From Solidesulfovibrio magneticus RS-1 (GTDB taxonomy: Bacteria; Desulfobacterota; Desulfovibrionia; Desulfovibrionales; Desulfovibrionaceae): a stretch of DNA of 64,000 bases. Within the stretch, counting starts at the first letter, position 1. Each line of letters begins with the position of its first letter. The stretch covers positions 1,426,001 through 1,490,000 of the forward strand of contig NC_012796.1 in assembly GCF_000010665.1 (NCBI RefSeq), read 5' to 3'. Both the position numbers and the translations under genes were made by a program. This document shows, one piece after another, positions 3,024-41,417 of the stretch. Under the pieces are notes generated by a model, which worked only from the letters and a program-made list of their open reading frames with translations, searched no databases and was not told where the DNA came from.

Positions 3024-3033
3024 GATTGAAGAA

Positions 3034-3072
3034 GCCTCCGGCGGCCGGGGGGATCATCCCCCCGGACCCCCT
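3034..3072 (+). repeat. Dispersed GC-rich palindromic repeat, copy 1 (variant core)
   Basis: GCCTCCGGCGG flank, then a 21-base palindrome at 3045-3065 with arm CCGGGGGGAT and a single central base, then ACCCCC. Compared with the common form, both arms differ in a compensated way, so the stem stays perfect. It lies ten bases upstream of the kinase start, in the opposite orientation to that gene. Confidence 0.9.
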
Positions 3073-3460
3073 GGAAGGGGGGTAAGGGGTCGGACGGTTG
3101 CGCGGCGTCCGGCGTGGATGCGTCGAAGACGTATAATACGATCAAATCAGTCTGAAAACAGGGAGAGAACCAGGGCGATTTTTTCGGAGCTGCGCCCCGG
3201 CGTAACCAGGCCGTCGGGAAGGATTATACGGCTGCCCTCGGCTCCCAGGGCATATCCCGTCCGCCGTATCGGCGTCGTTGCCGCCAGTGCCCCTAACGGG
3301 GGGCATTCGGCACCCGACGCAGGGAGCAGGACAGCGGCAGCGTTCATTCCTGTCGCCGGAACCATGCTTTTTCTCCCAAGGCCGATTGCCGACCCTCTTG
3401 GCTTCCCAACCGTCCAGAGCGCCCACTCACGCCACAACCCCCTCAACCCCTTTTCCATGT

Positions 3461-3534
3461 GGGGGGTCCGGGGGCCTCAGGCCCCCGGCGGAGAGGTCCA
3501 GGAGAGGCAGCGCCTCTCCTGGCCGCCGGAGGCA
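3461..3534 (-). repeat. Dispersed GC-rich palindromic repeat, copy 2 (long form with two hairpins)
   Basis: The common 21-base palindrome is at 3468-3488 (arm CCGGGGGCCT). Unlike the other copies, a 34-base segment separates it from the CCGCCGGAGGC flank. That segment contains a second perfect hairpin: CCAGGAGAGGC at 3498-3508 pairing with 3512-3522. It lies just after the stop of the hybrid kinase gene, reading in that gene's direction. Confidence 0.9.
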
Positions 3535-3563
3535 TTTTCCCTCTTTTACTCTTCCCTCTTCCC

Positions 3564-5486: not shown

Positions 5487-5714
5487 GCGCCCTCTCCGAA
5501 AGGCTTGGCCGTCGCAGGGTCGCGACGGCGGACGGTGAATAATAACCGCCGGCTGGCGGCGCGGCCTCCATGGCGGCCGATGGGCGGTCGGCCGACGCAA
5601 GTGTCCATGGAAGGCCGCGCCGCGTGAGCCGGCGGGGGTATGTGCCCAAGCGGGGACCGGGGAAGGGCGAAGCCGAGGGTCGAAGTCGGCGGCTTCCCGA
5701 AGTCGTCCTCAGGC

Positions 5715-6071
5715 TTATTCCCCAAGCATCTCCTTGACAAGGCGCAAGGTCTTGACCCGGTCCACAGGCTTGCTGATGACCGGCACGTTGTTGCCCAGCG
5801 CCGGCGGCCGGGGGCCGACGCCGCTTATCACGACGACCGGAATCTCGGCCAGGCCGGGTTCCTTGCGCAGCTTCACGTAGAACAGGGTGCCGCCGCGGGC
5901 GGGCATGTCCATGTCCAGGGTGATGAGGTCCGGATTGTGGACCTGGGCCTGTTCCAGGCCGGCCACGCCGTCGGTGGCGGTGAAGGTGGTGAAGCCTTCG
6001 CCGTCGAAGAGGTCCTTTAAGTAGCTGACGACTTCGGGATCGTCGTCGATGATGAGTATCTTCTTGGCCAT
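5715..6071 (-). CDS. Single-domain response regulator (receiver only)
   Basis: The 118 residues are a complete CheY-like receiver: acidic cluster D9-D11, phospho-acceptor D53 and the conserved lysine in SKPVD near the C-terminus. There is no output domain. It ends the group DUF1641 protein, SQR-like protein and receiver, lying 25 bases after the DUF1641 gene, so co-transcription is likely. It may relay phosphate between neighbouring kinases or act by protein contact. Confidence 0.9.
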   Translation of the reverse strand: MAKKILIIDDDPEVVSYLKDLFDGEGFTTFTATDGVAGLEQAQVHNPDLITLDMDMPARGGTLFYVKLRKEPGLAEIPVVVISGVGPRPPALGNNVPVISKPVDRVKTLRLVKEMLGE

Positions 6072-6096
6072 GATGGCATCCTCGTTTTGGTGGTCT

Positions 6097-6759
6097 TTAA
6101 CGGGGGGCGGCTTCGCTTAATTTGCCCAGGCCCTTGGCCAGTTCCAGGGCGACGCCGATGCCGCGCTTGAGGTCGGGATCGCCAAGCGCCTTGACCATGC
6201 CCAGAGGGCCGACGGGTTCGGCCTTGGCGAGATCCAGGCCGGCCGGCAGGTCGGTGAGCTTGTCGAGCAGCTCCAGCATCTTGGGATCGGACATCTTCTT
6301 GAGCAGGCCAATGAGCGCCACGAAGCTGTCGCCCATGGCGGCGATGTCGTCGGGGCCGTAGTGGGCGGCGACCTTGGCGCGCACGTCCATCATGGCGGCG
6401 TAGGTGCGGAACACGCCACGCTGTTCCAGTTCCCCAAGGCTTCTGATGCCGGTGTGGACCATGGACTTGGCCAGGGGCTCCATGGTGTGCCACAGCTCAA
6501 TAATGTTTTCGAGCTGCTCCAGGGCGTAGGCCAGGTTGCCGATGTTGCGCAGGAAGCGCTTGATCAGCATGAAGAGGTCTTCGAGCTGGAAGCCGGCTTC
6601 CACGGACCCCAGTTCCTTGAGCAGAATCTTGAATCCCGACTTCATGAGCGGGTTCATGTCATGGAACATCTCATTGCGTTCCAGACGGGCGACCCGCTGT
6701 TCTTTCAGCTCCGCCTCGATGGACTCAAGGCGTTCAAGAATGCGTTCCTCGGTGGTCAT
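6097..6759 (-). CDS. DUF1641 family protein
   Basis: The protein has 220 residues, mostly helical, with no membrane segment. It matches the DUF1641 pattern (helical repeats ending around 'GLLKKMSDPKMLELLDKLTD'). The ATG at 6759 is preferred over GTG at 6768 because GGGAGGTG lies eight bases upstream of the ATG and overlaps the GTG. It follows the SQR-like gene by 13 bases. DUF1641 genes are known to sit beside sulfide:quinone oxidoreductase or formate dehydrogenase genes; a role as a partner or membrane anchor for the flavoprotein is inference. Confidence 0.8.
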   Translation of the reverse strand: MTTEERILERLESIEAELKEQRVARLERNEMFHDMNPLMKSGFKILLKELGSVEAGFQLEDLFMLIKRFLRNIGNLAYALEQLENIIELWHTMEPLAKSMVHTGIRSLGELEQRGVFRTYAAMMDVRAKVAAHYGPDDIAAMGDSFVALIGLLKKMSDPKMLELLDKLTDLPAGLDLAKAEPVGPLGMVKALGDPDLKRGIGVALELAKGLGKLSEAAPR

Positions 6760-26725: not shown

Positions 26726-28114
26726 CTAGGCCCCGCCGAAAAGGGCGGCGATGGCTCCGAGCAGCGTCTGGGGGAACAGCCCCAGGCCCACCAAGCCCGC
26801 GGCCATGACGCCAAGGGCCAGGGTTCCGGCCGGGCCGGCCGCGTAGACGGCGGCCGGATGGGCGATGAGCGACTCCCGCATGTAGAGCGCGGCAAGCAAG
26901 CGCAGGGCATAGAACACGCCGACCACGGCCGTGATGATGCCGAACGCCGCCAGACCGACATAGCCGGCCGACAGGGCCGCGCCAAAGACCAGGAACTTGC
27001 CGACAAAGCCGGCCGTGGGCGGCAGGCCGGCCAGGGAGGCCAGACCGATGGCCAAAACGCCGGCCCGCCAGGGATGGACGTAGCCCAGGCCCCGGTAGGC
27101 GGCGATGTCGTCGCGGTCGCCGATCTGGGCCGACAGCGCGCCCACCGCGCCGAAGGCGGCCAGATCCATGAGCGCAAAGGCGGCCAGATAGAACAGCGCC
27201 GCCTCGCCGCCGCCGTCGTTGACGGCCATGGCGGCCATGAGGATGTAGCCCATCTGGGCGATGGAGGAATAGGCGAGCAGGCGCTTGACGCTGGCCTGGG
27301 CCACGGCCCCGAGGTTGCCCACGGCCATGGTCAGGCCGGCCCCTACGGCCAGGGCCGGCCAGAGCAGTTCCCGGGCCTCGGGCGAGACTTCCGAACAGAC
27401 ATGGAGCAGGGCGGCGGCGGCGGCGGCCTTGGACCCCGACGACAGGAAGGCGGCCACCGGGGCCGGCGCGCCCTGGTAGACGTCGGGCGTCCAGAGATGC
27501 ACCGGGGCCAGGGACAGCTTGAATCCCACGCCGACCAGGACCAGGGCCAGCCCGGCGGCGGTCAGGGGGCCGGGCGCGGCCAGGGAGGCGGCGATCTCCA
27601 TGGAGCCGGAGGCGGCATAAATCAGCGCCATGCCGAAAAGCAGCACGGCCAGGGCCATGGCTCCGGGCAGGAAATACTTGAGCGCCGCTTCGGTGCCGAG
27701 GTTGTCGTCCAGGCGGGCGGCGATGAGGGCGTAGAGGCACAGCGAGGCCAGCTCCAACCCCACGGCCAGCATGATCCAGTCGTCGGCGTCGGCCAGAAGC
27801 AGCATCCCCAGGGCCGACCACAGGAGCAGGCCGTAGAGGGCGTCGCCAGCAAAGCCCCGGCGCTCGGCATAGCGGGCCAGCAGGGCGATGGTGGCCAGGG
27901 CGATGACCGAGAGCAGGCCGGCGTAGAAGCAGGCGATGGGGCTGCCGCCTTGGGGGCCGGCCACGGCCCACAGCCCGGGCAGGGCGGCGAACAGGGCGGC
28001 GGTGGCGGGGTAAAAGCCGGCCGGCACGGACCGGGCCATGGAGAGACACAGCACGAGGAGTCCGCCGAAAGCCAGGCAGAGGTGGGGGAAATAGGCGACG
28101 ACAAAGGCGCTCAT
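26726..28114 (-). CDS. nuoN: NADH-quinone oxidoreductase subunit N
   Basis: The protein has 462 residues with about 13-14 membrane segments; it is one of three antiporter-like proton-pumping subunits of complex I. The recognisable core includes ALKYFLPGAMA, LSLAPVHLWTPDVYQGAPAPVAAFLSSGSKAA (key Lys and His region), SVKRLLAYSSIAQMGY and SLAGLPPTAGFVGKF. It is slightly shorter than the E. coli protein at the N-terminus. It is the last gene of the nuo operon, 12 bases after nuoM. Confidence 0.95.
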   Translation of the reverse strand: MSAFVVAYFPHLCLAFGGLLVLCLSMARSVPAGFYPATAALFAALPGLWAVAGPQGGSPIACFYAGLLSVIALATIALLARYAERRGFAGDALYGLLLWSALGMLLLADADDWIMLAVGLELASLCLYALIAARLDDNLGTEAALKYFLPGAMALAVLLFGMALIYAASGSMEIAASLAAPGPLTAAGLALVLVGVGFKLSLAPVHLWTPDVYQGAPAPVAAFLSSGSKAAAAAALLHVCSEVSPEARELLWPALAVGAGLTMAVGNLGAVAQASVKRLLAYSSIAQMGYILMAAMAVNDGGGEAALFYLAAFALMDLAAFGAVGALSAQIGDRDDIAAYRGLGYVHPWRAGVLAIGLASLAGLPPTAGFVGKFLVFGAALSAGYVGLAAFGIITAVVGVFYALRLLAALYMRESLIAHPAAVYAAGPAGTLALGVMAAGLVGLGLFPQTLLGAIAALFGGA

Positions 28115-28126
28115 GACGTTCCTCGC

Positions 28127-29608
28127 TTAGAGGCCCGGCCAGACGCGGGCGGCAATGGCGTTAAGCGGCTCGGCGGCCAGCCCCAGCACCGGCCCGGGGA
28201 ACAGGCCCAGCCAGACGATGCCGACGGCCAAAAGGGACAGCAGCACCGCCTCCCTGGCGTCCAGGTCGGGGAAGGGGACGGCCGAGCGCGGCGGGCCGTA
28301 GAGCACGTCCCGGGCCAGGCGCAGCAAGTAGACCAAGGTCGCGGCCATGCCGGCCACGGCCAGGCCGGCGGCCAGGACGTTCACCTTGAAAAGCCCGAAA
28401 ACGATCATGGCTTCGCCCACGAACCCGGACAGCCCCGGCAAGGCGGCCGAGGCCAGCACGCAGAAAAGAAACGCCGCGCCGAAATGCGGGGCCTTGTTCC
28501 AGATGCCGCCGAGGATGTCGAAGCGTCGGCTGCCCAGGCGTTCGCCGATGGCTCCGGCCAGGGAGAACAGTCCGCCGGAGGTCAGCGCATGGCTGACCAT
28601 GAGCAGCACCGCGCCGCCCAGGGCCAGCCGGCTGCCCGAAACCATGGCGGCCACGGCCAGGCCCATGTGGCCAATGCTCGAATAGGCGATGAGCCGTTTG
28701 ACGTCTTCCTGGGCCACGGCCACGGCCGAGGCGTAGAACAGTCCGACCAGCCCAAGGACGGTGAGCGCCGGGGCAAAGGCGTGGGCGGCCTCGGGGAAAA
28801 GGGGCAAAGCGAAGCGAATCAGCGCATAGCCGCCGGTCTTGAGGAGCAGGCCGGCCAGGATGAGGCTGCCGGCGGTGGGCGCTTCGGTGTGGGCGTCGGG
28901 CAGCCACATGTGGACCGGCACCAGGGGAATCTTGATGGCGAACGACAGCACGAAGGCGGCGAAAAGCCAGCGGCCGACGTTTTGGGGGATGTCCAGACGG
29001 GTCAGCGCCTCCAGGGCGAAGTTCGGGCCGTCCGGGGCGTTAGCCGAGAGCACGCCCAGGGCGATGACGGCCAGGAACATGAGCAGGCCGCCGGTGGCCG
29101 AGAACAGGAAGAATTTCATGGCCACGCGCAGTTTGTCGCCGTGGCCGAAGACGCCGATGAGGAAAAAGACCGGGATGAGCTGGGCTTCCCAGAAAAGGGC
29201 GAAGAGAAAGACGTCCGAGGCCAGGAAGATGCCCTGGACGGTGGTGAGCGAAGCCAGGATGAGGCCGTGGTAGAGGGCCGGGCGCTCCCGGTCGTCATGG
29301 CGCGAGGCCAACATGCAGCACAGGCCGATAAGCGCGGTCAGGACCACGAAAATGAGGCTCAGGCCGTCCAGGGACAGGCTGTAGCGGATGCCGAAGGACG
29401 GAATCCAGGCGGCGTCCTCGACCAGCTCCGGGCCGAAGGAGCCGGCCGCGAACAGGCCGGCGATCAGGGCGCACAGGGCCAGTTCGCCAAGGGCGGCCAG
29501 CACGGCGAACCGGCGGCAGGCGGCGGCGTCGCCGCGCAAGGCGGGCATGACGCAGGCCGCGACCAGGGGCCAGAAGATGATCAGGGACAGCCAGGGCAAT
29601 TGCCGCAT
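28127..29608 (-). CDS. nuoM: NADH-quinone oxidoreductase subunit M
   Basis: The protein has 493 residues and about 14 membrane segments. Diagnostic segments are FWEAQLIPVFFLIG, KIPLVPVHMWLPDAHTEAPTAGSLILAGLLLKTGGYALIRF, DVKRLIAYSSIGHMG and LPGLSGFVGE. The conserved Glu in the FWEAQ helix and the Lys in LLLKTGGY, both central to proton pumping, are present. The start at 29608 has GGAG seven bases upstream. A dispersed palindrome separates it from nuoL. Confidence 0.96.
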   Translation of the reverse strand: MRQLPWLSLIIFWPLVAACVMPALRGDAAACRRFAVLAALGELALCALIAGLFAAGSFGPELVEDAAWIPSFGIRYSLSLDGLSLIFVVLTALIGLCCMLASRHDDRERPALYHGLILASLTTVQGIFLASDVFLFALFWEAQLIPVFFLIGVFGHGDKLRVAMKFFLFSATGGLLMFLAVIALGVLSANAPDGPNFALEALTRLDIPQNVGRWLFAAFVLSFAIKIPLVPVHMWLPDAHTEAPTAGSLILAGLLLKTGGYALIRFALPLFPEAAHAFAPALTVLGLVGLFYASAVAVAQEDVKRLIAYSSIGHMGLAVAAMVSGSRLALGGAVLLMVSHALTSGGLFSLAGAIGERLGSRRFDILGGIWNKAPHFGAAFLFCVLASAALPGLSGFVGEAMIVFGLFKVNVLAAGLAVAGMAATLVYLLRLARDVLYGPPRSAVPFPDLDAREAVLLSLLAVGIVWLGLFPGPVLGLAAEPLNAIAARVWPGL

Positions 29609-29647
29609 GATGGCTCCATTCTCTACGTTATCCCCCTTTCCCCATAT

Positions 29648-29688
29648 GGGGGGTCCGGGGGCCTCAGGCCCCCGGCCGCCGGAGGCAT
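29648..29688 (-). repeat. Dispersed GC-rich palindromic repeat, copy 5 (inside nuo operon)
   Basis: Common core at 29655-29675. It lies 30 bases after the nuoL stop and 40 bases before the nuoM start, in the orientation of transcription. An intra-operon hairpin of this strength could reduce read-through or protect upstream mRNA. Confidence 0.9.
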
Positions 29689-29717: not shown

Positions 29718-31583
29718 CTACCCCAAACGCGCCGCCAACCAGACCAGTAAAATCGCGCAAGCGCCGAGCAACGTGGCCATGGTGGTGGCCGGGCGGGCCG
29801 AACCCAGGCGGGCGGCGGCCCGGGACAGGCGGCCCACGCCCGAGGCCGTGGCCGTGGCCGCGCCGTCCAGGACGTCCTCGTCCAGGCCGCGCCACAGCCA
29901 GGCGGCCAGCCGCAGGTAGGGCCGGGCGATGGCGCTGAGGCCAAAGGCGTCGAGGCCCAGGCCGGCTGTGAGCGCTCCAGCCGGGGCGGGCGCGGGATGG
30001 CGGGCGGGCTTGTAGAACACCCAGGCCAGCCACAGGCCGGCCAGCGCAATCAGCGCGTCGAGGATTTCCACGAACAGTTCGGCATGTTCGGTTTCGGGCG
30101 GCAGGGGCGCGACGGTGCCGGCCAAGTAGCTGTCGAGCAGGGCCGGGATGCCCAGGAAATGGGGCGGATTGGCGAAGCCGTAGACCACGGCCAGGATGGC
30201 CAGGGGCCATAGCGGGCGTTCCATGCGCCTCAGCGCCGGCTCGGACACGAGCTTGGCCGGATCGGCCGGGTCGCTGAAGAAGGCCACGAAGAGCATGCGG
30301 AAGACGTAGAGGGCGGTGAGAAACGCGGCGGCCGCGCCCATGACGAAGGACAGCAGGAAGATGGGGCCGGGGTGGGCCAGGGCGTCGGCCAGGGCGCGGC
30401 CCTTGCTGAAATAGCCTGAGGTCAGGGGCAGGGCGGCCAGAGCGGCCGCGCCGCAGGCGAAGAGGATAAATAGCCCGGGCAGGGCTTTTCGCAGGCGCGC
30501 GCCCATGCGGAAGATGTCGTGTTCCTCGTGGAAGGCCTGGATCATGACGCCGGCGGTCATGAACAGCAGCGACTTGAAAAAGGCATGGGCCTGCAAGTGG
30601 AAGAACGCGCCGCCGTCGTCGCCGCAGCCGGCGGCCAGGAACATGTAGCCGACCTGGCTGATGGTGGAATAGGCCAGGATGCGTTTGACGTCGCGCTGGG
30701 CCAGGGCGCAGGCCGCGCCGTACAGGGCCGTGGCCGCGCCGACAAAGGCGGCGGCGGCCCCGACCACCGGGGCCATGGCCAGCATGGGGGCCAGACGCAT
30801 GAGCAGATACACGCCGGCCGTGACCATGGTGGCGGCATGGATGAGGGCCGAAACAGGGGTGGGGCCGGCCATGGCGTCGGGTAGCCAGGCCGAAAGCGGC
30901 AGCTGGGCGGATTTGCCGCAGGCGGCGAAGAGGAAGAGCAGCCCGAGCAGGGTGGCCGTTTCCGGCGACATGGTGGCGGCATTTGCCGCTATGCCGGTCA
31001 GCGAGGCCGAGCCGGAGGCGGCGATGATAAGTCCCAGGGCGGCCACGTAGCCGAGATCGCCGATGCGGGTCATGAGGAAGGCCTTGCGGCCGGCGTCCAC
31101 GTTGGGCAGCTCCTCGTGCCAGAAGCCGATGAGCGCGAAGGAGCAAAAGCCCACGCCTTCCCAGCCCAGGAAGAGCAACACGAGGTCGTCGGCCAGGGCG
31201 ATGACCAGCATGAAGAAGACGAAGAGATTCAAGTAGCAGAAATACCGGGCGAAGGATTTGTCTTCGCGCATGTAGACGGCGGAATAGAGATGGATGAGCA
31301 GGGCGACGAAGGCGACGGTGACGCACATGAGCCCGGCCAGCCGGTTGTAGAGCAGGGAGAATTCGGCGGAAAATCCGTCGAAGGCGATCCACTGGCCGAA
31401 GGAGACGGTCACAGGCTGGGGGCCAAGGTTCCAGACGCCGGCCAGGGCGGCGGCCAGGGCGGCGGCCATGGCCAGGGCGGCGAGCCCCCCGGAGGCGGCC
31501 CGGGAGAGTTTTGGGCGCAGGGCGGCCTGGAGCACGGCCCCGGCCAGAGGGAAGGCGAGCAGGCAGGCGAGGGCGGTGGTCAT
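29718..31583 (-). CDS. nuoL: NADH-quinone oxidoreductase subunit L
   Basis: The protein has 621 residues and about 16 membrane segments including the long lateral helix region at the C-terminus. Diagnostic segments are LGWEGVGFCSFALIGFW, GKSAQLPLSAWLPDAMAGPTPVSALIHAATMVTAGVYLLMR, QRDVKRILAYSTISQVGYM and HAFFKSLLFMTAGVMI. It is the most distal proton-pumping subunit of complex I. GGGAGGAG lies four bases before the start. The start overlaps the nuoK stop in ATGA. Confidence 0.97.
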   Translation of the reverse strand: MTTALACLLAFPLAGAVLQAALRPKLSRAASGGLAALAMAAALAAALAGVWNLGPQPVTVSFGQWIAFDGFSAEFSLLYNRLAGLMCVTVAFVALLIHLYSAVYMREDKSFARYFCYLNLFVFFMLVIALADDLVLLFLGWEGVGFCSFALIGFWHEELPNVDAGRKAFLMTRIGDLGYVAALGLIIAASGSASLTGIAANAATMSPETATLLGLLFLFAACGKSAQLPLSAWLPDAMAGPTPVSALIHAATMVTAGVYLLMRLAPMLAMAPVVGAAAAFVGAATALYGAACALAQRDVKRILAYSTISQVGYMFLAAGCGDDGGAFFHLQAHAFFKSLLFMTAGVMIQAFHEEHDIFRMGARLRKALPGLFILFACGAAALAALPLTSGYFSKGRALADALAHPGPIFLLSFVMGAAAAFLTALYVFRMLFVAFFSDPADPAKLVSEPALRRMERPLWPLAILAVVYGFANPPHFLGIPALLDSYLAGTVAPLPPETEHAELFVEILDALIALAGLWLAWVFYKPARHPAPAPAGALTAGLGLDAFGLSAIARPYLRLAAWLWRGLDEDVLDGAATATASGVGRLSRAAARLGSARPATTMATLLGACAILLVWLAARLG

Positions 31584-31891
31584 GACTCCTCCCCGAGGCG
31601 GTCGTAGCTGTCGGCGCGGTCGGTGCCGCCGCCGCGACGGCCGTGGACGAGCAGCGCCAGACCCAGGCCGGCTTCGGCGGAAGCCAGGCCCATGATAATG
31701 ATGACGGCAGCCTGGCCGTCGAGGTTGTTCCAGGCGAGCCCCGCGCCGGCAAAGGCCAGTCCGGCGGCGGCCAGCATGAATTCCACGCCGATGAGGATGA
31801 GGAGAATCGAGCGCCGGGCAGCGGCCATGACGCCGCCGACGGCGAAGAGCAGGGCGGCCACGGCCAGGACATGGGAAAGGGGCACGATCAT
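31580..31891 (-). CDS. nuoK: NADH-quinone oxidoreductase subunit K
   Basis: The protein has 103 residues and three membrane segments. The core GGVMAAARRSILLILIGVEFMLAA contains the conserved Glu of helix 2, and VIIIMGLASAEAGLGLALL the Glu of helix 3; both are needed for proton transfer. The C-terminal tail GRRGGGTDRADSYDRLGEES is charged. It is coupled by 4-base overlaps to both nuoJ and nuoL. Confidence 0.96.
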   Translation of the reverse strand: MIVPLSHVLAVAALLFAVGGVMAAARRSILLILIGVEFMLAAAGLAFAGAGLAWNNLDGQAAVIIIMGLASAEAGLGLALLVHGRRGGGTDRADSYDRLGEES

Positions 31892-32412
31892 GCGGCCCGA
31901 CCTCCGGCGGCGATTTTGCGGCCGGTTTTGCCCCGGCCCAGGAGCATGACGGCGGCCAGGGCGGCAAACAGCAGGATGGAGACGGCCTCCACGGCCAGCC
32001 AGTATTTGTCGAACAGGATGGTCCCCACGGCGGCCGGGCCGGCCATGGCCGCCGGCAGCAGGGTCTTGGCCGTGGGATCGGCCCCGATCAGGGCGAACAG
32101 GGCCACCAGGGTGGCGGCGGCCAGGGTGGCCGGGACGAGGAACCGGCCCGGGGGCAGGGTTCCGTCGCCGGCCGGCAGGCCAAGCAGCATGATGACGAAG
32201 AGAAAGAGCACCATGATGGCTCCGGCGTAGACCACGACGGTCAGCACGCTCGGCAGCGGCGCGCCGAGCACGGCCAGCATGGCTCCCACCGACAGAAACA
32301 CGGCCACGGCGCAGCACACGGCATGGACGGGATTGCGCCGGGTGGCGGTGAGCACGGCCGCGCCCAGGCCCAGGGCGGCGAACAGATAAAACAGCGCGCC
32401 AAGCGGTGTCAT
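31888..32412 (-). CDS. nuoJ: NADH-quinone oxidoreductase subunit J
   Basis: The protein has 174 residues and five membrane segments. The conserved segment VVVYAGAIMVLFLFVIMLL (helix 3, whose pi-bulge is important for coupling) is present, as is the N-terminal ATRRNPVHAV. The start MTPLGALFYL at 32412 has GTGAGGAG upstream; an in-frame ATG 21 bases earlier is less likely. It follows nuoI after 123 bases that hold a palindromic repeat. Confidence 0.95.
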   Translation of the reverse strand: MTPLGALFYLFAALGLGAAVLTATRRNPVHAVCCAVAVFLSVGAMLAVLGAPLPSVLTVVVYAGAIMVLFLFVIMLLGLPAGDGTLPPGRFLVPATLAAATLVALFALIGADPTAKTLLPAAMAGPAAVGTILFDKYWLAVEAVSILLFAALAAVMLLGRGKTGRKIAAGGRAA

Positions 32413-32480
32413 TTTATGCTCCTCACGCGGCATTGCCGGATACTTCTCACACCCAGCCTCGCTTTCTTTTTACCCCATTT

Positions 32481-32535: not shown

Positions 32536-33093
32536 TCAAGGCATGATGCTCTTCACATCCACCGGTTCGTCCTCGTCGATATGGCTGCCCTTGGGCGTGC
32601 CGGCGGCGACGCCGGCGTGGGCGTAGAAGTCGTAGTCGGGATGCTTGCCGCCGTGGTCCACGAGCAATTGCTCCTTTTCGTAGACGAAGTCGGCGATGTC
32701 GTCCTTGCAGAAGGCGAATTCGGGCGTGAGCTGCAGGGCCAGGGTGGGGCAGGCCTCCTCGCACAGGCCGCAGTAGATGCAGCGGGCGAAGTTGATGCGA
32801 AACCAGGCGGCGCGGCGGCGGCCGTTTTCGCCTTCCTCGGACTGCATGGAGATGCAGTTGACCGGGCAGGCCCCGGAGCAGAGGTAGCAGGCCACGCAGC
32901 GTTCGTTGCCGTCCGGGGAGCGGGTGAGGATGATGCGGCCGCGCGTGCGCGCGGGCATGGGCCGCTTGTATTCCGGGTACTGCTCGGTGACGGGCTTGCG
33001 GAACAGGTGCGTCAGCGTGGCGGCATACGAGCCGGCCAGGCCGGCCGCGCCTTCGATGACCGCCCCGAGCAGGCTTTGTTTTTCGTCGGCCAT
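32536..33093 (-). CDS. nuoI: NADH-quinone oxidoreductase subunit I (2x[4Fe-4S])
   Basis: The protein has 185 residues. An N-terminal amphipathic helix region (1-50) is followed by two [4Fe-4S] motifs: C66, C69, C72, C76 and C105, C108, C111, C115, the ligands of clusters N6a and N6b with the usual crossed pattern. The protein carries electrons from NuoG to the N2 cluster. The C-terminal tail after residue 140 is longer than in E. coli. It lies eight bases after nuoH. Confidence 0.97.
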   Translation of the reverse strand: MADEKQSLLGAVIEGAAGLAGSYAATLTHLFRKPVTEQYPEYKRPMPARTRGRIILTRSPDGNERCVACYLCSGACPVNCISMQSEEGENGRRRAAWFRINFARCIYCGLCEEACPTLALQLTPEFAFCKDDIADFVYEKEQLLVDHGGKHPDYDFYAHAGVAAGTPKGSHIDEDEPVDVKSIMP

Positions 33094-33101
33094 GGATTGC
33101 C

Positions 33102-34097
33102 TCAGGCGGCGGCCACGAGAATCGCGCCGGTTAGAAGGACATTTACAAGGGCCAGGGGCACGAGAACCTTCCAGCCCAGGGCCATGAGCTGGTCGTAGCG
33201 CAGGCGCGGCAGCGAGGCCCGGGTCCAGATGAGAAAGACCGGCACGGCCAGGACCTTGATCCCAAGCCAGACAATGGGCGGCAGGATGGGGCCGTGCCAG
33301 CCGCCCAGGAAAAAGACGGCGATAAGCGCGCCCAGAAGCACCATGTTGACGTATTCGCCGACGAAGAAGAGCGCGAAACGCATGCCGGAATATTCGGTGT
33401 GGAAGCCGGCCTGCAGCTCGTTTTCGGCCTCGGGCAGGTCGAAGGGGATGCGCTTGGTTTCGGCCAGGGCGGCGATGATGAAGAGGATGAAGGCAAAGGG
33501 TTCGGTGACGGCAAAGGGCAGCCCGGACTGGGCGGCCACGATGTCGGAGAGGTCGAGCGAGCGCGCCCGCATGACCACGGGCACAAGCGACAGCCCCAGG
33601 GCCAGCTCGTAGCTGATCATCTGGGCCGCGCCGCGAATGCCGCCAAGCAGGCTGTACTTGTTGTCCGAGGTCCAAGCCCCCAGGGCCAGGCCGTAGACGG
33701 CCAGGGACGACAGGGCCAGGACCAGCAGCAGCCCGACGTTGGTGCGCACGATGACCTGGGGCACGGCGTGCCCCAGGATGGTGAGCGTCTCGCCAAAGGG
33801 CACCAGCATGAAGGCAAGTAGCGCCATGCCGGCGACCACGGCCGGGGCCACGAGGAAGATGCGGCGGTCCACGCCGTCGGGGATGATGTCTTCTTTCAGC
33901 AGCATCTTGAGGCCGTCGGCCAGGGGCTGGAGCAGGCCGAAGTAGCCGACCCGGTTGGGGCCGTAGCGGACCTGGAAGCGCCCGAGGAGCTTTCGCTCCA
34001 GGAGAATCATGTAGGCGGCCAGCCCCAGGGCCACAGCCAGGGCCACGGCCATTTTGACGAGCATGACGCCGACGCCGATGAGCAGTTCCGCGGTCAT
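33102..34097 (-). CDS. nuoH: NADH-quinone oxidoreductase subunit H
   Basis: The protein has 331 residues and eight membrane segments. Diagnostic segments are ERKLLGRFQVRYGPNRVGYFGLLQPLADGLKMLLKED and KRIPFDLPEAENELQAGFHTEYSG, which form the quinone-chamber loops and the charged channel with conserved Glu residues. It joins the hydrophilic and membrane arms. It overlaps nuoG by four bases. Confidence 0.97.
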   Translation of the reverse strand: MTAELLIGVGVMLVKMAVALAVALGLAAYMILLERKLLGRFQVRYGPNRVGYFGLLQPLADGLKMLLKEDIIPDGVDRRIFLVAPAVVAGMALLAFMLVPFGETLTILGHAVPQVIVRTNVGLLLVLALSSLAVYGLALGAWTSDNKYSLLGGIRGAAQMISYELALGLSLVPVVMRARSLDLSDIVAAQSGLPFAVTEPFAFILFIIAALAETKRIPFDLPEAENELQAGFHTEYSGMRFALFFVGEYVNMVLLGALIAVFFLGGWHGPILPPIVWLGIKVLAVPVFLIWTRASLPRLRYDQLMALGWKVLVPLALVNVLLTGAILVAAA

Positions 34098-36469
34098 GAC
34101 GTTTTCCTCCGGCCCAAGTCGTCTGGTCCAATCGTCGGGGGCAGGGCGGCGAATTGCGGCAGCCGGGGCACGACCACCACGCCAAGGGCCACGCCGCGAT
34201 GCAGGCGTACGGCGGCCGTGGCCGGCGCGTCGCCGCAGTCCAGGGCGACCGTCGCGCCGTCGGCGAGGTTCAGCCCCGCCGCGTCGTCAGGATGGAGCAG
34301 GACCACGGCCGGGCCGGTCTTGTCGGCGGTGAGCGGCGCGTAGCGGGACAGCTCGTCGCCGCCGAAAAACGGCGTTTCCAGGACCACGGCCAGGCCTTCG
34401 GCCGGCTGGGCCGGAGGTGATTCGGGCGCGGCCGGCTCCCGGCCGGGGTAGGCCGGACGCTGGCCTTCGTCGGGAAGCGTCGCCGGGTCCAGGCCGGCCA
34501 GGACGGGATGGGCGGCCAGGGCCTCGGCCAGGGGATGGCGCGGCAGCTCCAAATTCAGGGCGCGGCCCAGGCGGTCGCACCAGAAGGCGGCCGGGGCCGG
34601 GTCCGTGCCAGGGAGCGGCCGGGCGTAGTCCCGGGGCGGATGGTCGCCCGCGCCGTCGGCCAGCACGGACAGGCTCGGGGCCTGGACCGGTTCGGCGCGC
34701 TGCAGCCGGCCGTCGCTGGCGGCCAGGGTCCCGCCGGTCTCGAACAGGGCGGCGGTAGGCAAGAACACCTGGGCGGCGGCCACGGTGGGCGTGGGCAGAT
34801 GATCAAGGACGATCAGGGCCTCCAGGGCGGGGAGGCGAGCGGCCAGGGCCGGGGCGGCGGTAAAGAGGTCGGTTTCCACGGCCACCACGGCCTTGATCCG
34901 GCCGGCGGCCACGTCTTCGGCCAGCTCGTCCAGGCCCGGGGCGTCGGCCGGGGCCAGCAAGGCCGCGCCGGCCGTGCCGGCCGCCGTCAGCACCGGCAGC
35001 AGCCCGAAACGGTCGTCGCCCGGCAAGTGGGCGGCCAGGGCCGGGGCGTACACGATGGCCGGGCGCTTGGCCCCGGCCATGGCCTTGGCCAGGGCTTCCA
35101 GACGCGGCCACAGCTCGGGAGCCAGAGGGAATTTTTGCTGGATAAGCCCCGAGGCGTCCGCGTCGGCTCCGGCCACGGCCAGGACCGCCGCCAACTGGCG
35201 CGGGGCCAGGGGCAGGTGGACATGGTCCAGGGGCAGGGCCAGGGGCCGGGGATCGGCCAGGAAGACCGCGGCTCCGGCCCGGGCGGCCTGGCGCAGGGCG
35301 AGCGTCAGCATGGGCGCGTCGGCAAGGGGCGAAACGCCCACCACCAGCACGGCGTCGGCCTTGGTGAGATCGGCCAGGGATCGGGCCCGGGGCGGGGTCA
35401 GGGCATACAGCGCCTGCCGGGCTTGTTCCTGCGCCTTGGCGGCGGCGAAAAAGGCCGGCGGGCGCCAGCCGGCCGCCCGGGCCAGGGCGGTGAGCGCGGC
35501 CTGGGTCTCCATGGCGGAACGCTGGCCGCCGACGACGGCCACGGCAGCCGGGCCGTGGCGTTTGGCCGCCGCAGCCAGCAGTCCGGCGGCGGCCCGCAGG
35601 GCCTCATCCACCGAGGCCGGCCGGCCGGCGGCCAGGGGCGCGCGGGGCCGGTCCTGGGCGGACTGGTAGCCAAAGCCGTAACGCCCCCGGTCGCAGATAA
35701 ACGCGCCGTTTATGGCGGCGTTGTCCCGGGCCTCGATACGGGCCACCCGGCGGTAGCGCGACAGTACCGTGACGTTGCAGCCGAGCGAACAATGCAGGCA
35801 CACTGACGGAGCACGCTGGCAGTCCCAACGCCGGGCCACGAACCGGCCGGGCTTGTCGGTCAGCGTGCCGGTGGGGCACAGGTCGGCCAGATTGCCGGCA
35901 AAGGGATTATCCAGGGGACCATCCTCGAACCGGCCGAAATAGACGCGGTTGGCGTTTTGCATGGGGCCGAAATCGCGGTAGCCGCAATACTCCTGATAGA
36001 ACCGGGCGCAGCGGTAGCAGTGGATGCAGCGGTTCATCTCGTGCTGGATAAACGGCCCCAGGTTCTGGTCCTGGTAGGTGCGCTTGCGGCCCGGGAAGCG
36101 GCGCAGGCTATGGCCGCCGGAAATGGTCTCGTCCTGGAGCAGGCAGTGGCCGCCCTCGTCGCAGACCGGGCAGTCGTGGGGGTGGTTGGCCATGAGCAGT
36201 TCGATGATCTGGCGGCGAAAGGCCACGGCCTTGGGGTGGCCGGTCTCCACCACCATGCCGTCGGCGGCCGGGGTCATGCAGCTCATCTCCAGGCCCTTGA
36301 CCGGCCCCTCGACGAACATCACGGCGCACAGCCGGCAGGCTCCGGCCGCGCCCAGGGATTTGTGCCAGCAAAAGCGCGGGATCATGATGCCCGCCCGCTC
36401 GGCGGCCTCGATGACCGAAACGCCCTTGTCCACGGTAACGGGGCGACCGTCGATGATCAGATCGGGCAT
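34094..36469 (-). CDS. nuoG: NADH-quinone oxidoreductase subunit G
   Basis: The protein has 791 residues. The N-terminal [2Fe-2S] domain has C34, C45, C48, C64 (N1b). The His-ligated [4Fe-4S] site N5 uses H96, C100, C103, C109, and N4 uses C148, C151, C154, C198. A molybdopterin-oxidoreductase-like domain follows and starts with Cys-x2-Cys-x3-Cys-x27-Cys (C224, C227, C231, C259), so the extra N7 cluster is present as in E. coli and Thermus. No molybdenum site is expected. The start at 36469 has GGAGG seven bases upstream and overlaps the end of nuoF by 13 bases. Confidence 0.96.
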   Translation of the reverse strand: MPDLIIDGRPVTVDKGVSVIEAAERAGIMIPRFCWHKSLGAAGACRLCAVMFVEGPVKGLEMSCMTPAADGMVVETGHPKAVAFRRQIIELLMANHPHDCPVCDEGGHCLLQDETISGGHSLRRFPGRKRTYQDQNLGPFIQHEMNRCIHCYRCARFYQEYCGYRDFGPMQNANRVYFGRFEDGPLDNPFAGNLADLCPTGTLTDKPGRFVARRWDCQRAPSVCLHCSLGCNVTVLSRYRRVARIEARDNAAINGAFICDRGRYGFGYQSAQDRPRAPLAAGRPASVDEALRAAAGLLAAAAKRHGPAAVAVVGGQRSAMETQAALTALARAAGWRPPAFFAAAKAQEQARQALYALTPPRARSLADLTKADAVLVVGVSPLADAPMLTLALRQAARAGAAVFLADPRPLALPLDHVHLPLAPRQLAAVLAVAGADADASGLIQQKFPLAPELWPRLEALAKAMAGAKRPAIVYAPALAAHLPGDDRFGLLPVLTAAGTAGAALLAPADAPGLDELAEDVAAGRIKAVVAVETDLFTAAPALAARLPALEALIVLDHLPTPTVAAAQVFLPTAALFETGGTLAASDGRLQRAEPVQAPSLSVLADGAGDHPPRDYARPLPGTDPAPAAFWCDRLGRALNLELPRHPLAEALAAHPVLAGLDPATLPDEGQRPAYPGREPAAPESPPAQPAEGLAVVLETPFFGGDELSRYAPLTADKTGPAVVLLHPDDAAGLNLADGATVALDCGDAPATAAVRLHRGVALGVVVVPRLPQFAALPPTIGPDDLGRRKTS

Positions 36470-37821
36470 TGGTCCTCCGGACAGGGGGTGGGGCCGAACT
36501 GGGGCGGCCGGGTGCCGCAGGCCTTGCCGCGCACGTGCGGCGGCGGGTTGCCGAAGGGACAGCGCTTCTCGGTGATGTGCGCCTGGACCTCGTCCATGAA
36601 ATGGGTGAGCAGGCCCCGCAGCGGCTCGGCCGCGCCCGGGGCGAAGGCGCAGTAGGCGAGATCGAGCACCGGCAGCATCTCCTGCAGCATCCCGACGTGT
36701 TCCTCGGTCCCCTCGCCGCCTTCGATGCGGCGCAGCAGTTCGCGCACGTAGGGGATGCCCTCGCGGCAGGGCGTGCACCAGCCGCAGGATTCCCGGGCGA
36801 AAAATTCCATGAGCGACAAGGTGGCCCCGACCAGACAGGTGTCCTGGTCGAAGACCATGAGCGAGGCGGTGCCGAAGCGCTGGCCGGCCTTGCGCATGGG
36901 ATCGAAGTCCATTTCCAGGTCGAGCAGGGCCTCGGGCAGATAGGGCGTGGACGCGCCGCCGGGGATGACGGTTTTAAATGTCTTGCCCGGAGCCATGCCG
37001 CCGGCGTGGGTGAAGATGATGTCGCGGATGGTGACGCCGATGGGCAGCTCGTAGCAGCCGGGCCGGGCCACCTGGCCCGAGACGCTGTAGAGCTTGGTGC
37101 CCGATCCGGATTCCGAGCGGGCCAGGGACTTGAACCAGGCTGGGCCGTTGCGCACGATGCCGGGCAGATTGGCCAGGGTTTCCAGGTTGTTGACGATGGT
37201 CGGGCAGTCCCACAAACCCTTGACGCTGGTGCGCGGGCCGCCCTTGCGGGGATTGGGGCGCAGCCCCGAGATGGCCTTGATCTGGGCCGAGGCCTCGCCG
37301 CAGATGTAGCGGCCGGCACTTCGGTGGACGTGGACGTCGAAGCAAAAATCCGTGCCCAGGATGTTCTTGCCGAGATACCCGCGCTCCCGGGCCACCTGGG
37401 TTTCCTGCTCGATGAGCTTGGCGTCGCCTTCATAGGAGGGGCGGATGAAAAAGACGCCTTCGCAGGCTCCCACGGCGTAGGCGCACAGGATGATGCCCTC
37501 GATGACGAGGTGGGGATCGACGTTGACCAGGATGCGGTCCTTGAAGGTGCCGGGCTCCATCTCATCGGTATTTATCACCACATAGCGGGTGCCCACGTGG
37601 TCGGCCGGGATGCCCTGCCATTTGCGGCCGGCCGGAAAGCCGGCTCCGCCCCGGCCGCGCAGGTCGGCGTCGAGCACGAGCTGGAGCACTTCGGCCGGGG
37701 TGCGCTGGCCGATGGTGGCGCGAAGGGCCTCGTAGCCGCCGCCGGCCAGGTATTCGTCGATGGTGGCCGGCCGGCCCAGGTGGCGGTTTTTGAAAAGCAC
37801 TTGCGGGATGTCTACTTGCAT
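36457..37821 (-). CDS. nuoF: NADH-quinone oxidoreductase subunit F with altered NADH pocket
   Basis: The protein has 454 residues. The FMN-binding loop GRGGAGFP (56-63) and the N3 cluster ligands C346, C349, C352 and C391 are intact. The NADH contacts known from Thermus Nqo1 are changed: the second Glu of GEETAL is Ala177 (GEASAQ, 175-180), the Phe after KW is Gly70 (KWQG), and the KPPF segment is GGPR (194-197). The protein should therefore still receive electrons on FMN, but binding of NADH in the usual way is doubtful; NADPH or a protein donor is possible (inference). It overlaps nuoE by 10 bases and nuoG by 13. Confidence 0.94.
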   Translation of the reverse strand: MQVDIPQVLFKNRHLGRPATIDEYLAGGGYEALRATIGQRTPAEVLQLVLDADLRGRGGAGFPAGRKWQGIPADHVGTRYVVINTDEMEPGTFKDRILVNVDPHLVIEGIILCAYAVGACEGVFFIRPSYEGDAKLIEQETQVARERGYLGKNILGTDFCFDVHVHRSAGRYICGEASAQIKAISGLRPNPRKGGPRTSVKGLWDCPTIVNNLETLANLPGIVRNGPAWFKSLARSESGSGTKLYSVSGQVARPGCYELPIGVTIRDIIFTHAGGMAPGKTFKTVIPGGASTPYLPEALLDLEMDFDPMRKAGQRFGTASLMVFDQDTCLVGATLSLMEFFARESCGWCTPCREGIPYVRELLRRIEGGEGTEEHVGMLQEMLPVLDLAYCAFAPGAAEPLRGLLTHFMDEVQAHITEKRCPFGNPPPHVRGKACGTRPPQFGPTPCPEDQCPI

Positions 37822-38312
37822 CGCACCGGCTCCTCGGTTCCCGCCCGCAGTTCGGCGATGACGGCGTCCACGGCCTCGGGGGTGAGGCGGTCGTAGAAGC
37901 GGCCGTTTATGAGCATGGTCGGGGCGTTGTGGCAGTTGCCGACGCAGGCCGCCGGCAGCACGGTAAAAAGGCCGTCCTCGGTGGTGCCGCCGGGCGGCAC
38001 GCCCAGGGTGCGGCAGAGGTAGTCGAAGATGGAATCCTGGTGGAACATCCAGCAGACCACCGAGTCGCAGACGTGGATGACGTAGCGCCCCACGGGCCGG
38101 CGGTAGAGGTAGTCGTAGAAGGTGGCCAGGGATTCGAGTTCCAGGGTGGTCATGCCGAGGACCTCGGCGGCCCGGTGCATGGCTTCGTCGCACAGATAGC
38201 CGTAGTGGTGCTGCAGGGCGTACATGACGTCCACGGCGGCCTCGCGGGGATTGTCCACGGCGGTCACCAGGCGGCGCAGGTCAGCTTGAAGTTCGGGCGG
38301 CAGGGGCGACAT
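37812..38312 (-). CDS. nuoE: NADH-quinone oxidoreductase subunit E ([2Fe-2S])
   Basis: The protein has 166 residues. A helical N-terminal half is followed by a thioredoxin-like domain whose four ligands are C82 and C87 (HVCDSVVC) and C123 and C127 (ACVGNCHNAP), the N1a cluster. The HQDS after the first pair replaces the more usual RGSE. It forms the electron-input module with NuoF. It starts 84 bases after nuoBCD ends. Confidence 0.95.
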   Translation of the reverse strand: MSPLPPELQADLRRLVTAVDNPREAAVDVMYALQHHYGYLCDEAMHRAAEVLGMTTLELESLATFYDYLYRRPVGRYVIHVCDSVVCWMFHQDSIFDYLCRTLGVPPGGTTEDGLFTVLPAACVGNCHNAPTMLINGRFYDRLTPEAVDAVIAELRAGTEEPVRCK

Positions 38313-38396: not shown

Positions 38397-40778
38397 TTAC
38401 CGGTCGATGTCCGGCAGGATGTAGTCGTAGGAGGCCAGCACGGCCACGCAGTCGGCGATGGAAAGGCCTTCGATGATGTGCGGCAGGGCCTGGACATTGG
38501 CGAATCCCGGAGTGCGGATGCGCATCCGGTAGGCGTGGCAGCCGCCGTCGGAGACCACGAAATAGCCCTGCTCGCCGCGCGGCGCTTCGGTTGCGGCGTA
38601 GGCCATGCCCGAGGGCAGGCGCGGGCCGCGCGTCACATTGACGAAATGGTGGATGAGGCTCTCAATGTCTTTGAGCGCCGCTTCCTTCTGGGGCAGACAG
38701 TAGCGGGAGTCGGCCGAGAGGTAGCGCCCGTCGGGCATTTTCGCGGCCGCCTGCTCGATGATGCGCAGGCTCTCGCGCATCTCGTCCATGCGCACGAGGT
38801 AGCGGTCGTAGCAGTCGCCGTTTTGGCGGGTGGGCACGTCGAAGTCGAAGTCAGCGTAAGCGCCGTAGGGCATGGCCTTGCGCCGGTCCCAGGCCACCCC
38901 GGCGGCGCGCAGGTTGGGGCCGGTGACGCCCCGGTCCACGGCCTCGGCGGCCGTGATGCCGCCCACGCCCCTGGTCCGGGCCTTGACGATGGGATTATTC
39001 GTCACCCCGGCGTGGTATTCCTTGAGCCGGCCCGGGAAGATTGTAATGAACGCCTCGACCTGCTCCTTCCAGCCCTCGGGCAGGTCGGCGGCCAGGCCGC
39101 CCAGACGCAGCCAGGAAGGATGCAGCCGGCCGCCGGTTACGGTCTCGATGATGTCGAGCACCATCTCGCGCTCCCGCAGGGCGTAGAAGATGGGGCTCAT
39201 CATGCCGAGATCCTGCAGGAACGTGCCGAAATACATGAGGTGGTTGGACAGCCGGAACAGCTCCGAGAGCATGACCCGGGCATAGGCCGCCCGGGGCGGA
39301 ACCTCGATGCCGGCCAGTTTCTCCACGGCCGTCACGTAGGACAGGTTGTTGGCGATGCCGGACAGGTAGTCCACCCGGTCGGTGTAGGGGATGAACTGGT
39401 GCCAAGTCTGGCGCTCGCCGATTTTTTCCACGCCCCGGTGGTGGTAGCCGATGTCGATGCCCATGGCTTTGATGCGCTCGCCGCGAAGGGCCATGACGAA
39501 GCGGATGATGCCGTGGGTGGCGTAGTGGTGGGGGCCGAAATTGAGGAGATAGTCGCCGTCCTTGGCCCGGTCCCCAAGGATTTCGGCGGCGTCCACAGGA
39601 GCCAGACGCTGGCAGTCGTCGCGGGTGAAGGCCGGCATGTTGGTGGCCCGGCCCTCGTAGTCCTTGCGCAGGGGATGGCCGATCCAGTCGCGGTGGGTGA
39701 GCAGTCGCCTGGGGTCGGGATGGCCGTCAAAACGCAGGCCGAACATCTCGGCCGCCTCGCGCTCGTACCAGTTGGCCGCGCTCCATACGCCCGTGGCCGT
39801 GGGCAGCGTGGCGTCGCGGCTTTGCAGCGGACAGACCAGCCGCACCATGGTCGCCCGGGACAGCGAGGTCAGGGTATAGACGGCCGTGGCCTCGTGGCCG
39901 GCCGGGGTTTTGCGGGCGGTCTCGTCGATGGCGGTCAGGTCTTCCAGCCGCTCGAAGCGGGTGGGGGCCTTGCGCTTGAGGTGGTCGAGCACTTCGGCCA
40001 CCCGGGCCGGGGGAACCTCGAAGGTCGGCATGTCGCCGGGCGCGCCGGCTCCGGCGAGCAGCCGGGCGTCGTCGCCGTAGACGGCGGCCAGATCGGCGGC
40101 CAGCACTTCCTGTTCGCGGGTGAGCGTCAGTCCCGGGGCCGGCGGGGTCCACAGGACCTCGGCCCGGGAGCCGGCAAAGCGCGGTTCGGTGGCGGCCGTG
40201 CCCCGGATGGGGATGGCGGCGTAGCCCGGGCCGCGCGTGTCGCGGGCTTTGGTGCGGCCATCAACGAGAAAATCCTCGCGCCCGCCCTGGGAGCCGCCGG
40301 GCAGATGCAGCACCGGCCGCGTCGGCCGCTCGCTGGCGTCGATCTTTTTTTGCAGGAGCATGAGCCCCTCGAAAACCGCCTCGGGCCGGGGCGGGCAGCC
40401 CGGGATGTAGACGTCGATGGGCAAAATCTGGTCCGAGCCTTGAACGACGGAATAGACGTCGTACATGCCGCCGGAATTGCTGCACGAACCCATGGAAATG
40501 ACCCATTTGGGGTCGCTCATCTGCTCGTAAAGCTGCAAGGCCACCGGGGCGATCTTTTTAAACATCGTGCCCGAGACGATGAGCACGTCGGCCTGCCGGG
40601 GCGAACCCCGGAAGACCTCCGAGCCGAAGCGGGCGATGTCGTAGCGCGGTCCCCAGGCCGTGGCTTCCTCGACGAAGCAGCAGGAAAGCCCGAAGAAAAA
40701 GGGCCAGAGGCTGTTTTTGCGGGCCCAGTTGATGACGGCGTCGGCCGGGCGGAAGAGCTGGTCGGCGGTCGAGGTCAC
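38397..40778 (-). CDS. nuoBCD: NADH-quinone oxidoreductase subunits B, C and D fused
   Basis: The protein has 793 residues in one uninterrupted frame. Residues 1-165 are NuoB with the four N2 ligands C33, C34, C99 and C128. A linker of about 60 residues leads to NuoC (about 235-385, with [27 protein letters not shown]). NuoD runs from about 400 to 793 ([30 protein letters not shown]-like TDRVDYLSG, and the C-terminal DIDR). The fusion ties together the quinone-reducing site. The GTG start at 40778 has GGAGGAAGG upstream and overlaps the nuoA stop in GTGA. Confidence 0.96.
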
Positions 40779-41194
40779 AGGCCTTCCTCCTCGTCCCAGT
40801 CAAGAGCCCCCTTGGACCAGGCGTAGGCCAGCCCGAGGCCCAGGATGACGATGAAGACGGCCATGCGCAGGTAGCCGGAAAGCCCGAGTTCCGGCCAGGC
40901 TGCGGCGTAGGCGATGATGTAGGCGGTTTCGACGTCAAAAAGCAGAAACAGCACGGCCACGAGGAAAAAGGGCACGGGATAGCGGAACCGGCCCGGTCCG
41001 GTGGGGATGATGCCGCACTCGTAGGGCTGTTGTTTGGCGGGGCTTGGCCGGCGGCGGGTCAGGAAGCCGGAGAGGAAAAGGATGACGGCCATGACGCCGC
41101 AGACGATGCCGACATAGACGACAAGGGGCAGCGCCCCGGGGTTCCAGGGGGAAAAGGGCGCGTCCAGGGGGACATAGGCCAGGGGCTGGGGCAT
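40775..41194 (-). CDS. nuoA: NADH-quinone oxidoreductase subunit A
   Basis: The protein has 139 residues and three membrane segments. The conserved loop [36 protein letters not shown], here at about 55-90, contains the essential Cys and the Asp/Glu of the coupling region. The start MPQPLAYVP at 41194 has GCGAGG upstream; a longer in-frame reading extends into non-coding DNA. It is the first gene of the nuo operon. Confidence 0.95.
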
Positions 41195-41417
41195 GGGGCC
41201 TCGCTTGTCGGCGTTGGCGTCGCCCGGACCGGAGGGTCCGATTGCCTCCCACCATACCCGCAACCGGATGAATTGCAACCGGTTCGCGCATCACGGACGA
41301 GTTGGCGAGGGGTGTAGGAATTGTTCGTTTATAGTGGAGATTGACAATTTTATGTGTCTGGGTATTGGAATATGTACATCCCAATCGCCCGGCCATGGTC
41401 CGGGCCAGGAGGCGGCC
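41195..41417. promoter_or_regulatory. Divergent control region between nuoA and the phospholipase-like gene
   Basis: Near nuoA there is an inverted repeat (CGGACC at 41225-41230 with GGTCCG at 41235-41240) and a direct repeat GCAACCGG at 41260 and 41275, spaced 15 bases, which could be a regulator site. Towards the plus-strand gene, TTGACA at 41341-41346 is followed after 16 bases by TATTGG, a possible but weak promoter. The region drops sharply in GC content from about 41310 onward. Confidence 0.4.

Follow-up and report, generated by a model that had tools for sequence, protein, structure and literature searches.

Complex I is generally regarded as an NADH (reduced nicotinamide adenine dinucleotide) enzyme, and NuoF is its flavin mononucleotide (FMN) and N3 cluster subunit. 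The window, which is the whole 64,000-nucleotide stretch of the Solidesulfovibrio magneticus RS-1 genome analysed here, encodes a complex I whose nuoF gene raises the question of which electron donor the enzyme uses. The original prediction, made from the DNA sequence, was that this NuoF has lost four NADH contacts and that the complex may take electrons from NADPH (the phosphorylated nucleotide) or from a protein donor. The results point to a complex I in which the NuoF pocket is quite likely of the NADP(H) type and not of the NADH type. As judged from the sequence, the window complex I probably runs on NADPH.

The adenine of the bound nucleotide is stacked by the pair Phe70 and Phe205 (Phe71 and Tyr205 in Aquifex), while Glu185 and Lys76 hold the adenosine ribose, according to a passage of PMC11677225. 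The alignment of the window NuoF to Thermus Nqo1 (PDB 2fug) reproduced exactly the four replaced contacts that had been predicted, namely F78 to G70, E185 to A177, K202 to G194 and F205 to R197. It also bore out the prediction of an intact FMN loop and N3 site: the FMN residues and the GRGGAGFP loop (Thermus positions 64–67, 75, 92, 94, 95, 183, 184, 219 and 220) were identical, and the N3 cysteines C346, C349, C352 and C391 were all retained. The other adenine-stacking residue, Thermus F70, was retained as F62, as were E97 and K75 in Thermus numbering. Only the changes at E185 and F205 are informative, because E. coli NuoF has Leu at position 78, so that Phe is not general there, and Thermoanaerobacter kivui HydB keeps Arg at 202, a position that does not track cofactor use. 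The argument from four contacts is therefore reduced to two. The Glu of E. coli NuoF at the E185 site is E183. In place of the Glu185 with Phe or Tyr205 of an NADH-specific NuoF, the window NuoF presented A177 and R197, the NADP-type combination known from T. kivui HydB, in which residue 185 is small and residue 205 is Arg or His. A bifurcating HydB would carry D97 and a C-terminal domain with two [4Fe-4S] clusters; the window protein has 454 residues, lacks the HydB cysteine motifs and carries E97.

Residues that change together across a family can reveal a shared function. The alignment set four PDB chains beside a non-random sample of 176 different NuoF/HydB relatives. The sample was drawn from the loci of named relatives, the best 30 loci each of the family, phylum and Bacillota (query L039) searches, two paralogues of the same genome, and 80 stretches hand-picked down the phylum and Bacillota match lists. 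One locus (L003) was omitted because its gene is that of L011, and of the 178 sequences extracted two were removed as duplicates. We take the genome groups searched to be Desulfovibrionaceae, Desulfobacterota and Bacillota. Glu185 occurred with Phe or Tyr205 in 114 relatives, a non-Glu residue occurred with Arg or His in 52 and with Phe or Tyr in 10, and Glu never occurred with Arg or His. The claim that nearly all NuoF proteins have GEETAL was too strong, as 62 of the 176 relatives in this non-random sample lacked that Glu. In these 62 sequences, position 185 was Ala, Ser, Gly, Val or Asn and position 205 was Arg, His, Tyr or Phe without exception. Fisher's test on the counts gave 7e-35, a value that is meaningless by itself given the relatedness of the sequences. 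Mutual information with the class of residue at 205 placed columns 205 (trivially), 206 and 185 at ranks one to three.

A quick tree was built without the 185 and 205 columns; it does not distinguish gains from reversals. It required at least seven changes at 185 and at least nine at 205, with supported branches forcing six for the presence of the Glu, which was absent in several separate groups. Across six independent pairs on supported branches (means of 200 pairings), position 205 differed in the same way in 5.8, in the opposite way in 0.0 and not at all in 0.2; the sign test gave a median p of 0.031 (range 0.031–0.063). The window NuoF was placed in a 59-row branch together with E. coli NuoF (Shimodaira–Hasegawa-like approximate likelihood ratio test, SH-aLRT, 99), on the NuoF side rather than with HydB. 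Thermus Nqo1 and E. coli NuoF formed long branches, with Thermus on the other side of the tree.

Enzymes of known cofactor provide a calibration for these two positions, and the PDB chains compared were those with printed alignments. GEETAL together with PPF was present in five NAD(H)-linked chains, from Thermus, E. coli, A. woodii HydB, S. ovata StnB (8oh5) and C. saccharolyticus NfnB (9bov). The Thermus and E. coli enzymes and A. woodii HydB use NAD, and the C. saccharolyticus NfnB structure was solved with NAD. For StnB, NAD+ was located at the FMN in a passage of PMC10482914. A sixth chain, 7t2r_B, also has GEETAL/RPPF and stands outside the five NAD(H)-linked cases. T. kivui HydB (8a6t_B), recovered from the PDB with L039 as query, reads GESTAL/RPPR, i.e., S185 and R205. 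Entry 8A6T is T. kivui HydABC (data-availability passage of PMC10482914), and an excerpt of PMC8578170 gives the purified T. kivui complex 20.8 U/mg with NADP+ and <0.01 with NAD+. The rule for positions 185 and 205 agreed with the five NAD cases and the one NADP case.

A different marker is suggested in a passage of PMC9431212, in which G-D-E-G-D-P-G as against A-D-E-G-D-P-G sets NADP or NAD use in HydB. The same paper describes C. autoethanogenum HytB, which stands outside the calibration, as NADP-specific. Over 98 HydB-like rows, the GDEGDPG/ADEGDPG marker disagreed with the 185/205 pair in 25 (17 with Gly and Glu185, eight with Ala and no Glu), and the residues at 185 and 205 were mutually consistent in all 98. 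T. kivui HydB fits both markers and so does not decide between them.

Sequence conservation can distinguish a working site from a decaying one. Among nine genus-level NuoF sequences (79–100% identical, the window's own included), residues 168–212 were invariant at 43 of 45 positions, whereas the whole protein is invariant at 310 of 454 (hypergeometric P 3.6e-6). Conservation this strong marks the loop as a working site. In the 39 members of the window's clade, 17 of the 19 listed FMN, nicotinamide-side and N3 positions were invariant; position 65 differed in one sequence and position 219 varied (Asn in 29). K75, F70 and E97 were retained in every one of the 39.

These observations suggest how the pocket would work. 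In an NADH-type NuoF, the adenosine ribose is held by Glu185, which would repel a 2'-phosphate, and the adenine is stacked by Phe or Tyr205. Ala177 in place of Glu185 would make room and remove the negative charge, and Arg197 in place of Phe205 could bind the 2'-phosphate as well as stack on the adenine. The hydride would then pass to the unchanged FMN site, and the electrons would travel on through N3, likewise unchanged, and along the usual chain to quinone, with the complex oxidising NADPH or, if driven backwards, reducing NADP+.

Several points weigh against an NADP(H)-type pocket. The calibration includes one NADP-specific homologue with a readable sequence against five NAD cases, and position 202, which is Arg in that homologue, is Gly in the window NuoF. 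Ten Glu-less NuoF sequences in the window's own clade have Tyr or Phe at 205. The sign test reached only p 0.031–0.063, on a sample that was not random. The predicted structure (eight sequences) had a mean predicted local distance difference test score (pLDDT) of 67.7, which fell below 50 in the pocket (residues 56–70, 86–97 and 168–205); because the model is poor there, we inferred the pocket contacts from the alignment. In a fold search with the model, E. coli NuoF had the best E-value, with T. kivui HydB in fourth place and Thermus Nqo1 in fifth, a result that confirms the fold only and is silent on the pocket. Lastly, the window NuoF misses the NCBIfam NuoF equivalog cut-off TIGR01959 (467 against 558.65 bits) and other differences therefore exist, although this cut-off is a naming threshold and not a mechanistic feature.

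The direction of flow is a separate matter. A complex running mainly in reverse, in which the proton motive force and menaquinol would make NADPH for biosynthesis, is compatible with the NADP(H)-type pocket, for which it would be the reason, and differs from NADPH oxidation in direction only. It draws on the same evidence as the NADP(H)-type pocket, and no RnfC match above its cut-off was found in the genome. Sequence cannot reveal direction, and other sources of NADPH are already on offer in genes resembling NfnA, NfnB and malic enzyme. These lie in a row of genes like fumarase beta, NfnA, NfnB and malic enzyme (identified by eye) elsewhere in the same genome (L200, G000:C2:3864300-3869000), and their presence counts among the points in favour of the NADP(H)-type pocket. 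The NfnB-like gene exceeds the cut-off of TIGR01316, a match which we take to indicate NfnB. We regard mainly reverse running as rather unlikely.

We also doubt that the pocket takes both NADH and NADPH, with the loss of Glu185 relaxing discrimination while F62 and Arg197 still hold the adenine. Such dual specificity would fit the retention of F70, K75 and E97 throughout the clade, the ten clade members with an aromatic residue at 205, and the 2011 study by Morina, which, going by its title, reportedly engineered complex I into an NADPH:ubiquinone oxidoreductase. Position 205 in the 39 Glu-less clade sequences was Arg in 17, His in 12, Tyr in nine and Phe in one; the loss of Glu alone therefore does not force a basic residue at 205, and the ten aromatic members may themselves be dual-specific. 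Against dual specificity in the window NuoF, T. kivui HydB has the same kind of pair and the strict preference for NADP+ given above, and all Glu-less rows outside the window's clade had Arg or His at 205.

The remaining part of the original prediction, that NuoF has lost nucleotide binding and is fed by a protein such as ferredoxin or flavodoxin, appears very unlikely. The four replaced contacts would favour it, and a passage of PMC4287179 describes a Nuo of D. gigas that lacks NuoEFG and whose suggested donor is ferredoxin. The nicotinamide and FMN side is intact, however, and the tight constraint on the changed positions 185 and 205, within a loop that is itself over-conserved, is not that of drift; we set a protein donor aside on these grounds, donor genes not having been searched for systematically. 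Near the operons read (window, L074 and L080), again short of a systematic search, no gene caught the eye as a donor, and there is no space for an extra gene between the window nuo genes from BCD to G. NADPH is the well-supported half of the prediction, with Arg or His at 205 in 52 of the 62 Glu-less sequences and S185/R205 in the NADP-specific T. kivui HydB. An ordinary NADH-type NuoF with a loop drifting neutrally is the least probable of all. The fold, plainly that of NuoF, would fit it, but the coupled switch recurs in several separate tree groups, and the loop varies less than the remainder of the protein.

The distribution of the NADP(H)-type pair was surveyed among related genomes. The S. 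magneticus genome has 5,315,620 bases in three contigs, the largest of 5,248,049, and the close relatives that carry a name belong to Solidesulfovibrio, apart from one Desulfovibrio sp. Within 119 family-level genomes, 16 (own included) carry a NuoF 59–100% identical to that of the window, the next matches being at most 42% identical. In all 16, Glu185 is absent and 205 is Arg or His; a substitution shared across the clade, together with a remodelled pocket, is what the original prediction had named as support. The phylum search covered 345 genomes; among its best 29 new loci (L041–L069), 20 lacked the Glu and nine had GEET with KPPF. Twenty operon stretches of Glu-less relatives were fetched, and all 14 nuo genes lay within the stretch in nine of them, several others ending at contig ends and one (L080) containing only nuoE, nuoF and nuoG. 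In 18 of the 20, each of B, C and D could be located, and in all 18 the three share one open frame. In L005, nuoB, nuoC and nuoD were not in one frame (nine stops), which may be a sequencing error. In L074, genes resembling an SMC-type ATPase and a phosphoesterase (by eye) lie between nuoF and nuoG (2607-6315).

The Glu is also missing from another NuoF group (L121 and L123), which has full 14-gene operons (L205 and L207) in which B, C and D are separate. The operon of L122 (L206) covered A to G only, and the nuoBCD fusion was absent from all three (L205–L207). On the tree, L121 and L123 lie near E. coli NuoF and apart from the window's clade, so on the simplest account complex I acquired the switch at least twice.

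The window operon runs on the minus strand from 41278 to 26726 in the order A, BCD (fused), E, F, G, H, I, J, K, L, M and N, and encodes the full set of complex I subunits from A to N (Table 1). A nuo operon was first reported in D. magneticus RS-1 according to a passage of PMC4287179. The NCBIfam scan covered ten of the 12 nuo products (all except NuoA and NuoI). At least one curated cut-off was passed by NuoE, NuoBCD, NuoG, NuoH, NuoL, NuoM and NuoN, and NuoJ and NuoK fell below theirs.

Table 1. Coordinates of the nuo genes and of the NuoF pocket codons in the window.
Feature	Position	Strand	Basis and remarks
nuoA	40775..41278	-	Place and matches in relatives' operons; no family-library scan; start not settled
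nuoBCD, one fused frame	38397..40778	-	NCBIfam NF009808, 1424 bits, cut-off 1156
nuoE (N1a [2Fe-2S] subunit)	37812..38312	-	NCBIfam NF005722, 188.5 bits, cut-off 141
nuoF, complex I FMN/N3 subunit with predicted NADP-type pocket	36457..37821	-	454 aa; PDB homology and alignment
NuoF residues 168-212, remodelled adenosine-binding loop, GEASAQ...GGPRTSVKGLW	37186..37320	-	
Codon of G70 (Thermus F78; not diagnostic)	37612..37614	-	Alignment
Codon of A177 (Thermus E185, ribose-binding Glu)	37291..37293	-	Alignment
Codon of G194 (Thermus K202)	37240..37242	-	Alignment
Codon of R197 (Thermus F205, adenine-stacking Phe)	37231..37233	-	Alignment
nuoG	34094..36469	-	NCBIfam TIGR01973, 494.3 bits, cut-off 470.05
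nuoH	33102..34097	-	NCBIfam NF004741, 354.3 bits, cut-off 305
nuoI	32536..33093	-	By eye (two 4Fe-4S motifs) and place; no family-library scan; start at MADEKQS
nuoJ	31888..32433	-	Best NCBIfam match 82 bits, under cut-off 157
nuoK	31580..31891	-	Best NCBIfam match 72.6 bits, under cut-off 101
nuoL (approximate start)	29718..31592	-	NCBIfam TIGR01974, 531.3 bits, cut-off 407.5
nuoM (approximate start)	28127..29656	-	NCBIfam TIGR01972, 485.9 bits, cut-off 263.8
nuoN	26726..28114	-	NCBIfam TIGR01770, 339 bits, cut-off 332.6

The C-terminal tail of the window NuoF (residues 421-454, 36460-36561, minus strand) contains the cysteines C421, C435, C447 and C452, which the genus-level NuoF sequences share and other genera retain in part. 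The C-terminal linker of StnB carries a Zn site in a passage of PMC10482914, and by analogy the tail may be a relic metal site. Elsewhere, at L208 (7523-15102), a HydB paralogue with GESTALM and KY-IRS presents the same two-position switch downstream of HdrA-like and HdrD-like genes (by eye) on the same strand, which suggests an NADP-linked Hdr-type complex.

A change of electron donor would alter the energetics of the pump. The potentials in PMC9304861 are −74 mV for menaquinone, about −280 mV for NADH and about −380 mV for NADPH, which gives a driving force to menaquinone of about 306 mV per electron from NADPH as against 206 mV from NADH. This difference may bear on whether a menaquinone-linked complex I can move its full complement of protons. 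On balance, we favour the proposal that an NADPH-driven complex I has arisen naturally in the phylum, on the simplest account at least two times: in the fused-NuoBCD lineage of the window and in the lineage of L121 and L123, where B, C and D are separate. Both would have used one two-position switch that recurs in bifurcating hydrogenases, raising the driving force of the pump by ~100 mV per electron in menaquinone-based anaerobes. In whole lineages of anaerobes, proton pumping would then be coupled to the NADPH pool instead of the NADH pool, and the cofactor of NuoF, HydB and related FMN subunits could be predicted with the help of two alignment columns. We found no description of a natural NADPH-type complex I in the titles and abstract openings of the full-text literature searched, from which most subscription journals are absent. 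To our knowledge, an NADPH-using complex I is known only as an engineered version, for which the window enzyme would offer a natural template.

With the NuoF/Nqo1 of E. coli (7p64) and Thermus (2fug), to whose chains it is 44–46% identical in the structural alignment, the window NuoF shares the fold, the FMN loop, the four N3 cysteines and the place between nuoE and nuoG, but it differs by the changes E185 to A, K202 to G and F205 to R and by the Cys-containing tail beyond residue 425. T. kivui HydB shares with it a non-Glu residue at 185 (Ser), Arg205, Thr206 and Gly78, whereas it differs in its extra N- and C-terminal domains, D97 and Arg202, and is part of a hydrogenase rather than of complex I. 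Two other FMN subunits of the same genome (L001 and L002), HndC-like paralogues named by eye, belong to the same FMN-subunit family and differ in keeping GEETAL and KPPF, a contrast that counts in favour of the NADP(H)-type reading of the window NuoF. The D. fructosovorans bifurcating hydrogenase uses NAD, according to a passage of PMC9431212. The engineered complex I of Morina shares with the window enzyme an altered nucleotide preference, predicted in the latter case. The residue mutated there was reportedly the Glu at the E185 site, and that enzyme is engineered, whereas the window complex I would be a natural one.

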